Below, in pieces: positions 128 to 2,559 of a stretch of DNA of 64,000 nucleotides. Position numbers and translations under genes: made by a program. Source of the DNA: Dasania sp. GY-MA-18. GTDB lineage: Bacteria; Pseudomonadota; Gammaproteobacteria; Pseudomonadales; Dasaniaceae. The notes under the pieces were generated by a model. That model did not search any database, was not told the origin of the DNA, and worked only from the letters and a program-made list of their open reading frames with translations. Position 1 is the stretch's first letter; each line of letters begins with the position of its first letter. The stretch covers positions 1 through 64,000 of the forward strand of contig NZ_JANHAP010000016.1 in assembly GCF_024734385.1 (NCBI RefSeq), read 5' to 3'.

Positions 128-134
128 GCCAAAT

Positions 135-167
135 AAAAAAGGCCCACCCTTTGGGTGAGCCTTTTTT
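135..167 (-). terminator. Rho-independent terminator after tRNA-Val(GAC)
   Basis: The arms ggcccaccc (141-149) and gggtgagcc (153-161) pair with one mismatch, and an A-run on one side and a T-run on the other make it usable in both directions. On the minus strand it lies just past the CCA end of the tRNA. The IS end sits directly beyond it, so the insertion stopped short of the terminator. Confidence 0.75.
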
Positions 168-170
168 ATT

Positions 171-247
171 TGGTACGACCGAGTGGATTCGAACCACCGA
201 CCCCCACCATGTCAAGGTGGTGCTCTAACCAACTGAGCTACGGTCGT
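171..247 (-). tRNA. tRNA-Val (anticodon GAC)
   Basis: The minus strand folds as a full tRNA. The acceptor ACGACCG pairs with CGGTCGT, the D-stem is GCTC, the anticodon stem CCACC/GGTGG has loop TTGACAT (anticodon GAC), the T-loop is TTCGAAT, the discriminator is A, and CCA is encoded at 171-173. The body closely resembles the known enterobacterial tRNA-Val(GAC). It reads valine GUC/GUU codons. Confidence 0.95.
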
Positions 248-263
248 ATAAACTTTGTATCCT

Positions 264-359
264 CATCCACTCAGAGTGGATGATTCAAAACAGCTTAAGG
301 CTGTTTTGCCCCTGCGGGCTGCGTCGCTTTGCGACTTGATCAAAATGCTGTGCATTTTG
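264..359. repeat. Train of five short inverted repeats
   Basis: Five perfect small palindromes follow one another: 264-282 (arms CATCCACTC), 286-308 (arms CAAAACAGC), 308-319 (arms GCCC), 323-335 (arms GTCGC) and 341-359 (arms CAAAATGC). They lie between an intact tRNA-Val and a decayed tRNA fragment, and there is no plausible ORF. The role is unknown; it could be a mosaic repeat element or structured RNA transcribed ahead of tRNA-Val. Confidence 0.6.
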
Positions 360-363
360 GCCA

Positions 364-417
364 AACAACCGACCCTGTTTAAAGGAGTCCTCTAAACAAC
401 TGAACTACGGTTGTATA
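364..417 (-). pseudogene. Degenerate tRNA fragment resembling the adjacent tRNA-Val
   Basis: On the minus strand this reads ACAACCG-TA-GTTC, then a D-loop and TAGAG, matching the first half of the intact tRNA-Val at 171-247 with several substitutions. The next bases, tataaac, also match those flanking the intact gene. The anticodon arm is mispaired and the T-arm breaks off, so it cannot form a working tRNA. It looks like an old duplication interrupted by the hairpin train. The region from here to 543 holds nothing else I recognise. Confidence 0.6.
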
Positions 418-543
418 AACCTATAAACTGTTTATTTAGCAAGCACTTAGCTTTGCTAAACAAGGGCCGCATTATAATGAGCCGCCCTGTGATGCACAAG
501 TGCTTTTACTAGCGACTGGCGACTAATTACTAGAGACTGCCCT

Positions 544-2559
544 CTATTGTATAAAACTGTGTTGTTTGACTTCGGCCAGTTGGTCGCGGGTGGCGGCGGC
601 TTCTTCAAATTCTAGGTTTTTGGCGTGTTCATGCATTTTGTTTTCAAGGCGCTTGAGTTCCTTGGCTAATTGGCTGGGGCTCATGCTCATGTAGTTGGCG
701 CTGGGTTCGGCGACTTGGCTGGTTTTTCCTTTGCGCTTGCCTTTTTTGGCACCGGGGGCGTGGGCGCCTTCCATGATGTCTTTAACGTCTTTGTTGAGGC
801 CCTGTGGGGTGATGTTATTGGCCAGGTTAAAGGCGATTTGTTTTTCGCGGCGGCGTTCGGTTTCGCCTATGGCGCGCTCCATAGAGCCGGTGATTTTGTC
901 GGCGTAGAGTATGGCTTTGCCGTTAAGGTTACGGGCGGCGCGGCCTATGGTCTGTATCAGTGAGCGGTCAGAGCGTAGAAAGCCCTCTTTGTCGGCGTCC
1001 AGTATGGCTACTAGTGATACCTCTGGCATGTCTAGGCCCTCGCGCAGCAGGTTAATGCCTACCAGCACGTCAAACTCGCCCAGGCGCAGGTCGCGGATAA
1101 TTTCTACCCGTTCTACGGTGTCTATATCTGAGTGCAGGTAGCGTACTTTGATGCCGTGGTCGCTAAGGTAGTCGGTGAGGTCTTCGGACATGCGCTTGGT
1201 GAGGGTGGTGATCAGTACCCGTTCTTGCAGGGCTATGCGCTTGTGGATTTCCGATAGCACATCGTCTACCTGAGTACCGGCGGGGCGTACTTCTACCTCT
1301 GGGTCTAGCAGGCCTGTGGGGCGCACTACCTGTTCGGCGATATTGTCGGCATGTTCGGCTTCGTATTTGCCCGGGGTGGCGGAGACAAAGACTAATTGCG
1401 GTACTTTTCTTTCCCACTCGTCAAAGCGCATGGGCCGGTTGTCTAGCGCGGAGGGCAGCCTAAAGCCGTATTCCACCAGGGTTTCTTTACGTGAGCGGTC
1501 GCCCTTATACATGCCGCCTATTTGTGGCACGCCAACATGGGATTCGTCCACCACCACCAAGGCGTCATCGGGTAGGTAGTCAAACAGGGTGGGGGGGGCT
1601 TCGCCGGATTTGCGGCCAGAGAGGTAGCGGGAGTAGTTTTCTATGCCGTTGCAATAGCCCAGCTCGCGTATCATCTCTAGGTCGTAGCGGGTGCGTTGTT
1701 CCAGGCGTTGGGCCTCTACCAGCTTGTTGTTATTGCGTAACTGCTCTAACCGCTCTTTAAGCTCTAGCTCTATGTCGTCTATGGCGTTTAGTAGGGTGCT
1801 GCGCTCGGTGACATAGTGGCTTTTGGGGTAGATGGTGATGCGCGGTACTTTTTGGAAGACTTCGCCTGTGAGTGGGTCAAAGAGCGAGATGCTGTCTAAC
1901 TCATCGTCAAACAGGTCTAGGCGTACGGCCTGGGCCTCTTCATCGGCGGGGAATATGTCTATCACATCGCCTCTGACTCTATAGGTGCCACGGGCAAAGT
2001 CTATGTCATTGCGGGTGTATTGCAGCTCGGCCAAGCGTCTGAGCACGGCGCGTTGGTCGATTAAGTCGCCGCGATCGAGGTGCATTACCATTTTGAAATA
2101 CTGCTCGGGGTCGCCCAAACCGTATATGGCCGACACCGTGGAAACCACTATGGTGTCTTTGCGCTCTATCAGGGCCTTGGTGGCTGAAAGCCGCATTTGC
2201 TCTATATGCTCGTTAACCGAGGAGTCTTTATCGATAAAGGTGTCGGAGGAGGGCACATAGGCTTCGGGCTGGTAGTAGTCATAATAAGAAACAAAGTATT
2301 CCACCGCATTATTGGGGAAAAACTCTTTAAATTCCCCGTATAGCTGGGCCGCCAAGGTTTTGTTGGGGGCCATAATGATAGTAGGGCGCTGGATTTGCTC
2401 TATGACGTTAGCAATGGTGAAGGTTTTACCCGAGCCGGTGACCCCTAGCAGGGTTTGGCTGTGCAGACCGGCGTTAATACCGTTTACCAAGCTTTTTATG
2501 GCGTTGGGCTGGTCGCCCGCCGGCTGGTATTTAGACTGCACTTGAAAGGCTTTGGACAT
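544..2559 (-). CDS. uvrB: UvrABC excinuclease subunit B
   Basis: UvrB is the damage-verifying helicase-like subunit of nucleotide excision repair. It is loaded by UvrA and then recruits UvrC. The 671-residue protein has the expected N-terminus ([15 protein letters not shown]), the Walker [11 protein letters not shown], the beta-hairpin region with [16 protein letters not shown]-type and QTIGRAARN helicase motifs, and a C-terminal UVR motif ([13 protein letters not shown]) for UvrC contact. I start at the ATG at 2559, which matches family N-termini; a TTG two codons upstream is less likely. The length is close to that of E. coli UvrB. No clear LexA box is visible upstream. The gene stands alone between tRNA genes. 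Confidence 0.97.

Follow-up and report, generated by a model that had tools for sequence, protein, structure and literature searches.

In E. coli, the tyrT locus carries repeats that were described decades ago, and RtT has been reported there as an RNA processed from the pre-tRNA transcript; the E. coli record is annotated 'rtT sRNA, processed from tyrT transcript'. In strain K-12 the 178-bp repeats of tyrT/tyrV (Rfam RtT, RF00391; 133-138 bits with the Rfam model) consist of an intact tRNA, a spacer, an inverted T-arm piece GGGGAAGGATGAGAAGCTTCG, GGTTCGA, hairpins and ATCC followed by the tRNA 3′ end and CCA, all in tandem. The tyrT-tyrV spacer measures 33 bp in E. coli 1450 and ST80 and 209 bp in K-12 and Ec-050, the difference corresponding to one unit of 176 bp that keeps register with the 3′ end of the tRNA. 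A query for the filled junction is covered to at least 80% in 1921 of 5426 genomes. A BLAST count of alleles without the unit gave 4480 of 5426 genomes but cannot be used, as tRNA-Tyr itself makes up 53 of the 77 query letters.

The DNA considered here, called the window, is a stretch of 64,000 nucleotides from Dasania sp. GY-MA-18. G000 denotes the genome of this organism, other G numbers the compared genomes and L numbers retrieved loci; R1 is a model of the repeat family. The window begins where contig C7 of G000 does, and near its start the minus strand runs from uvrB through a TATAAT box, a decayed tRNA-Val copy, four hairpins (HP1-HP4) and a fifth palindrome to an intact tRNA-Val(GAC) with its likely terminator:

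2565-544, minus: uvrB, identified by Pfam UvrB domains
471..476, minus: TATAAT, located upstream of the decayed copy and presumed to serve the tRNA-Val promoter as -10 box; read from the sequence, with no good -35
360..414, minus: remnant of a second tRNA-Val copy, a decayed 5′ part that breaks off in the T-loop; aligned to tRNA-Val nt 1-56
341..359, minus: HP1, adjoining the T-loop junction; palindrome and covariation analysis
323..335, minus: HP2, GTCGC/GCGAC here and GGAGC/GCGAC or GCCGC/GCGGC in other copies; sequence and alignment
308..319, minus: HP3, CCC-GCA-GGG on the minus strand; sequence
286..308, minus: HP4; R1 match 273-371, minus, 82.8 bits
264..282, minus: fifth palindrome, a T-arm 3′ half plus an inverted T-arm piece; GAGTGGATGAG, also in L010 and L032; sequence
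248..263, minus: second pre-tRNA flank (gtttat) before the intact tRNA, resembling the flank before the decayed copy; sequence
171..247, minus: intact tRNA-Val (GAC); ARAGORN, and 69.5 bits with the Rfam tRNA model
129..173, minus: inverted repeat behind tRNA-Val with 21-nt arms and a T-run, likely its intrinsic terminator; repeat search

The original prediction spoke of five perfect palindromes without spacing. The arms of all five are indeed fully complementary; the spacing is nearly as claimed, with gaps of 0-5 nt between units. Folding of 256-361 gives -41.8 kcal/mol (z -4.4) and that of 248-420 on the minus strand a z of -5.9, with none of 200 shuffles equally low in either case, and the palindromes exceed chance. 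The fifth palindrome lies outside the repeated block; one of its arms is the T-arm 3′ half ATCCACT and the other the inverted copy AGTGGAT. The decayed tRNA-Val copy had been noticed beside the hairpins together with its flank tataaac, and this is confirmed: 51 letters form a gapped alignment with the 56 of tRNA-Val nt 1-56, the flank is common to the decayed and intact copies, and the starts of the two are 167 bp apart. TATAAT stands upstream of tRNA-Val in five genomes (the window, L137, L007, L010 and L015), and a strict promoter scan reports no promoter at the tRNA-Val of the window. With the conserved TATAAT on one side of the block and tRNA-Val on the other, the hairpins could have a role as RNA. 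A terminator scan reports the inverted repeat at 129..173 for the plus strand only and finds HP4 terminator-like on the minus (tRNA) strand, at 312-297. A CRISPR had been dismissed from the start, and rightly: the direct repeats in 1-1500 are only short families of two to four copies.

A DNA search with 248-420 matches 7 of 37 genomes, own genome included, with four places in the latter, and a tRNA gene is present in 16 of the 18 loci retrieved. Fifteen copies were aligned (A1), and R1 was made from the copies so aligned. R1 has 36 matches in its own genome and matches in 24 of the 37 genomes (own included); G004, which belongs to the window's family, has 22. Across the order at least 87 of 293 genomes are matched (up to 13 candidates per genome scored), and across the class, at E<=1e-6, at least 29 of 369, own included (10 candidates per genome scored). 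The whole-genome search that the original prediction had proposed therefore returns many copies at many tRNA genes, a repeat family and not a single-copy sequence lacking conservation. Covariation, also proposed, is present as well. Of the 26 pairs in A1, 16 have both partners changed in one copy or more, and the covariation score is 0.279 versus 0.108 in shuffled alignments (0 of 500 as high) and 0.03-0.07 with the partner slid. The A1 structure was drawn on the same sequences that were tested, and hairpin-templated correction could mimic covariation, so at the level of the aligned copies this shows that stem folding is kept, not why. Perfect hairpins with a stem of at least 5 average 2.1 per block and 0.4 in shuffles; no more than 1 of the 154 cores has four of them, HP3 being short and a mismatch being present in many stems. 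A CCC-NNN-GGG hairpin is present in 121 cores, and 97 of these have C(GNA)G as the HP3 loop. This loop is unusually stable in DNA minihairpins; the copies are related, and the argument is weak.

Some blocks contain an extra hairpin module (ATACCCAA...GTGGGGCATGCT or similar) that is absent from others, even within one array (L049 3781-3912, L050 3406-3544, L052 2357-2490 and L128). A second class of related blocks comes without a tRNA in the retrieved stretch (L061 and L063 in G000; L160, L161, L166 and L173-L175); many of these end in TTTGAATCAAA or similar, and some are chained head to tail. Contigs end or start within about 500 bases of blocks in G000 (C6, C7, C12 and C13), G018 (C2), G021 (C4) and G164 (C3), where the breaks are probably those of the assembly.

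The family is tied to tRNA genes. In the own genome, 33 of the 36 copies could be placed. For 28 of these a tRNA gene is found no more than 1 kb away, in every case on the same strand, against an expected 0.49. The placed copies form 17 clusters, 13 of them with a tRNA, and 13 of the 25 tRNA loci have a copy of the block. The ends of R1 include some T-arm letters, a slight bias to T-arms that hardly explains linkage to whole tRNA genes. The analysed set comprises 161 rows, some places being represented twice, or 154 distinct cores. A same-strand tRNA is found in the retrieved stretch for 113 of the 161 rows, upstream of the block in 98, and the other 48 are without one. The first copy of each series (n=67) begins a median of 69 nt (24-101) behind the tRNA end, and the 67 first copies stand behind tRNAs of 18 anticodons. 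At 52 of them a terminator-like hairpin separates tRNA and block, by a loose test with no control. tRNA genes also accompany 18 of 19 newly retrieved loci at class level and 14 of 15 RtT loci.

The block, about 85 nt long and made of HP1-HP4, interrupts the T-loop of a tRNA after nt 59 (TTCGA^ATCC), and its flanks are T-arm or 3′-end pieces of the neighbouring tRNA. Together with the partial copy of its host tRNA it forms a unit of about 160-230 bp. GTTCG?A stands on the left in 92 and ATCC on the right in 89 of the 113 tRNA-linked copies, the model itself containing these ends. Read in tRNA sense, the commoner layout is an intact tRNA, a terminator, an inverted T-arm piece, GGTTCGA, HP1-HP4, and ATCC with more of the same tRNA's 3′ end. 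The centre of the inverted piece is changed to 'tga', as in GAGTGGATgaGAACC behind tRNA-Val in L032. After the block, CCA and terminator are complete in some loci (L072, L022, L032 and L103). In this layout the functional tRNA stays whole, since what the unit contributes is a 3′ piece of tRNA lying downstream of it, in some cases with terminator. The inverted T-arm agrees with its own tRNA at 10.3 of 17 positions and with other tRNAs at 9.1 (own strictly best in 15 of 67, best or tied in 32), and the 3′ tail at 10.6 of 16 compared with 8.3 for non-cognate tRNAs (best or tied in 57 of 113). Judged by these identities, the match to the own tRNA appears modest for the inverted T-arm and better, though still moderate, for the 3′ tail.

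In a second layout a tRNA 5′ part cut in the T-loop is followed by the block and then by an intact tRNA. It is seen in the window and at L149/L010, L154 and L178. Nucleotide 59 is the last of the left tRNA part in L149 (Val), L154 (Arg-TCT, identical at 59 of 59), L178 (Arg-TCT) and L081 (Arg-CCG); in the window the alignment of the decayed copy reaches nt 56. The window copy is atypical in that its left side is a tRNA 5′ part and its right side is without acceptor end. L059 and L129, an orthologous pair from G000 and G001, have the block in an anticodon loop (TTCCGA^A), again a hairpin tip. A tRNA intron does not fit, intact copies standing beside the split ones (Val in the window; Arg-TCT in G004, 77 of 77). 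Tandem arrays are formed as well, with five copies in L049 and three in L072, and the start-to-start distance is 161 in L076, 173 in L072 and 231 in L070.

This is the anatomy of the E. coli tyrT repeats and Rfam RtT, so the statement that the arrangement matches no known family does not hold, although Rfam nonetheless misses the window copy. Inverted T-arm, GGTTCGA, ATCC and the 3′ end of the neighbouring tRNA are found in L072, L076, L103 and L032 as in E. coli L089, and the E. coli tyrT-tyrV unit contains GAGGAGCGAAGCGACGAA, the core of the window family. The hairpin sequences differ, and R1 scores the E. coli unit at 9.4 bits. RtT has no match on the window copy at the Rfam gathering threshold (45 bits) or at E<=5, and none in the own genome at E<=1e-4; Rfam reports only sub-threshold matches to unrelated families on the block. 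By Rfam's rule the window copy is not a member of RtT. The units of L076 reach 35.8 and 34.2 bits on the RtT model, below the gathering threshold. In G141 the units marked by R1 are also those that RtT matches, again below cut-off. Among 194 genomes of the order to which the window belongs, 14 have RtT above cut-off, and the loci retrieved have Arg, Lys, Ser, Gln or Tyr-cluster tRNAs. Unlike RtT, the window family extends over the many anticodons given above, often behind a terminator-like hairpin.

Other described systems share single features with the block. REP/BIME elements, which are associated with RAYT (Y1) transposases, are also short conserved palindromes in intergenic DNA, but the block's position is the tRNA T-loop. 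At E<=1e-5 Y1 transposases have no match in G002, G004, G006, G007, G010, G021, G022 and G032, all of which have R1 matches; G000 itself has one. REP/RAYT as a requirement is rejected because G004, rich in copies, is without a Y1 match. Integron attC sites likewise keep a folded structure despite sequence variation and form tandem arrays, but their target differs. Integrative elements at tRNA 3′ ends also duplicate the tRNA 3′ half and restore the gene; the block unit differs from them in being short, without genes and built around one conserved hairpin block. A strict pattern has no match in IMG/VR, which is weak evidence against a viral origin; a similar pattern found five stretches in named genomes and is thus far less sensitive than R1. 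In the titles and abstract openings of the literature consulted, no description of the hairpin-block family was recognised.

Sites with and without the unit can be compared. G001, a genome of the same genus, is without the unit: there tRNA-Val follows directly on uvrB and the promoter region. The 100 nt before this tRNA match the sequence upstream of the decayed copy in the window at 92 positions and that upstream of the intact tRNA at 48. The upstream unit at tRNA-Val is absent from G002 and G005 and present in G004, and a downstream unit is found in G004 and G005. At unit-less sites a deletion between direct repeats, the repeated tRNA parts, looks the same as a site never occupied. Behind tRNA-Arg(CCG) in another genus, 7 of 10 retrieved loci have the block; in the remaining three, other DNA has replaced what follows the tRNA, in one of them from within the terminator onward. 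This points to loss, and the whole looks like old inheritance and loss.

Spread between loci is old or slow. When the tRNA loci of a genome are compared with one another (594 pairs; 74 tRNA-linked copies, five genomes), no pair is near-identical and the best identity is 0.861. Recent hopping between tRNA loci, considered as a route, is not observed in these pairwise identities. The nearest neighbour of a copy is at another tRNA of another genome for 35 of the 74, at the same tRNA of another genome for 19 and in the same genome for 20, a pattern that, on sequence identity, gives no clear route of spread. The suggestion of a mosaic mobile repeat is borne out in so far as the copies form a family, stand at many tRNA genes and have exchanged hairpin modules; movement itself is not observed. 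In G005 a longer non-coding repeat ends in the HP1-HP4 block at five places, near-identical and with different right flanks, and a composite that carries the block thus seems to have dispersed recently. It is a few hundred bp long, with the block flanked by GGGTCA (L187-L191; also L167 and L169-L172), and may be read in L189 at about 300-800 (plus-strand coordinates) on the minus strand. Possibly it is a MITE-like element that took up the block. Elsewhere in G005, at L068 2400-10650 (C7), the downstream unit of tRNA-Arg occurs twice, at a distance of about 8 kb. The enclosed DNA contains an ORF of 522 aa, which has HTH domains and an rve match below threshold, as well as ORFs in which ExbD, Peptidase_M56 and Penicillinase_R domains are recognised.

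Several explanations have to be weighed. By analogy with RtT in E. coli, the hairpins may be a functional RNA processed from the pre-tRNA transcript. Covarying stems and the place of the window block between TATAAT and tRNA would agree with this, as would the Thr-Tyr-Gly-Thr or Tyr-Gly-Thr tRNA clusters held by the RtT-match loci L092, L095, L098, L101 and L104. Against it stand the terminator-like hairpin that, by the loose test, so often precedes the block and the terminator-like HP4 of the window itself; E. coli 1450 has no RtT annotation at tyrT/tyrV, and the prevailing HP3 loop is one that stabilises minihairpins of DNA. An RNA function is unlikely. It is still harder to credit that the units are scars left at attachment sites where tyrosine recombinases integrated islands or prophages into tRNA 3′ ends. 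In favour are a duplicated tRNA 3′ half and terminator, a restored intact tRNA and another terminator at the distal copy, as seen by eye in L050, L079, L083 and L027, and the further copy about 8 kb downstream of tRNA-Arg in G005 C7. But six ORFs of that stretch, compared with Pfam, have no tyrosine-recombinase match, and one has a weak rve match (22 bits against a cut-off of 32.6). One conserved block at many tRNA species is also unlike a set of unrelated scars, and the strict pattern is without a match in IMG/VR.

A more serious competitor, if still an improbable one, dispenses with a mobile element. Replication would stall at tRNA-arm palindromes, the inverted T-arm, the duplicated tRNA end and the perfect stems would be built by template switching and hairpin-copying repair, and the block would spread by gene conversion through the conserved GGTTCGAATCC. 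The inverted T-arm pieces before many blocks, which fit their own tRNA best or equally well in 32 of 67, the junctions at hairpin tips (the anticodon loop included) and the tandem arrays are all in keeping with it, as is the lack of an enzyme for the block in the searches for Y1 transposases and in Pfam on the six G005 C7 ORFs. The difficulty is that a single block sequence across the class needs a donor, for which template switching alone is insufficient. T-loop junctions, filled and unfilled sites, arrays, kept stems, the G005 composite and the terminator-like hairpins favour a repeat acting at the DNA level over these three alternatives.

The 96 bases of the window are thus probably, by a modest measure of confidence, one copy of a non-coding palindromic DNA repeat that interrupts the T-loop between nt 59 and 60 and forms a unit with part of its host tRNA, the E. 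coli tyrT/RtT repeats having arisen by the same process. What the copies themselves demonstrate is their number, their linkage to tRNA genes and to the tRNA strand, the position of the junction, the existence of sites with and without the unit, the covariation of the stems and the tandem arrays. The unit would enter the T-loop at the DNA level, either by T-loop-directed recombination or by a template switch on an extruded hairpin. In the second layout (the window, G004 and G005) it places a 5′ part of the tRNA before the intact gene. The repeat would multiply by tandem duplication, and arrays would grow and shrink through recombination between the repeated tRNA ends. The tyrT/RtT repeats of E. 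coli would be products of the process that made the window family. A bolder and doubtful extension is a putative dedicated recombination system, in which the universal T-loop of tRNA genes, GGTTCGA^ATCC, would be the insertion site, the block a folded recombination site, the spare tRNA half the means of restoring the host tRNA, and the tyrT repeats a relic.

What is new here is a family missed by Rfam, present at many tRNA species, together with a unifying reading of RtT. With it, the oddity of the E. coli tyrT locus becomes one case of a gammaproteobacterial arrangement at a fixed position of tRNA genes. Since alleles with and without the unit exist within E. coli, its gain, its loss and its effect on tRNA maturation are testable in laboratory strains.
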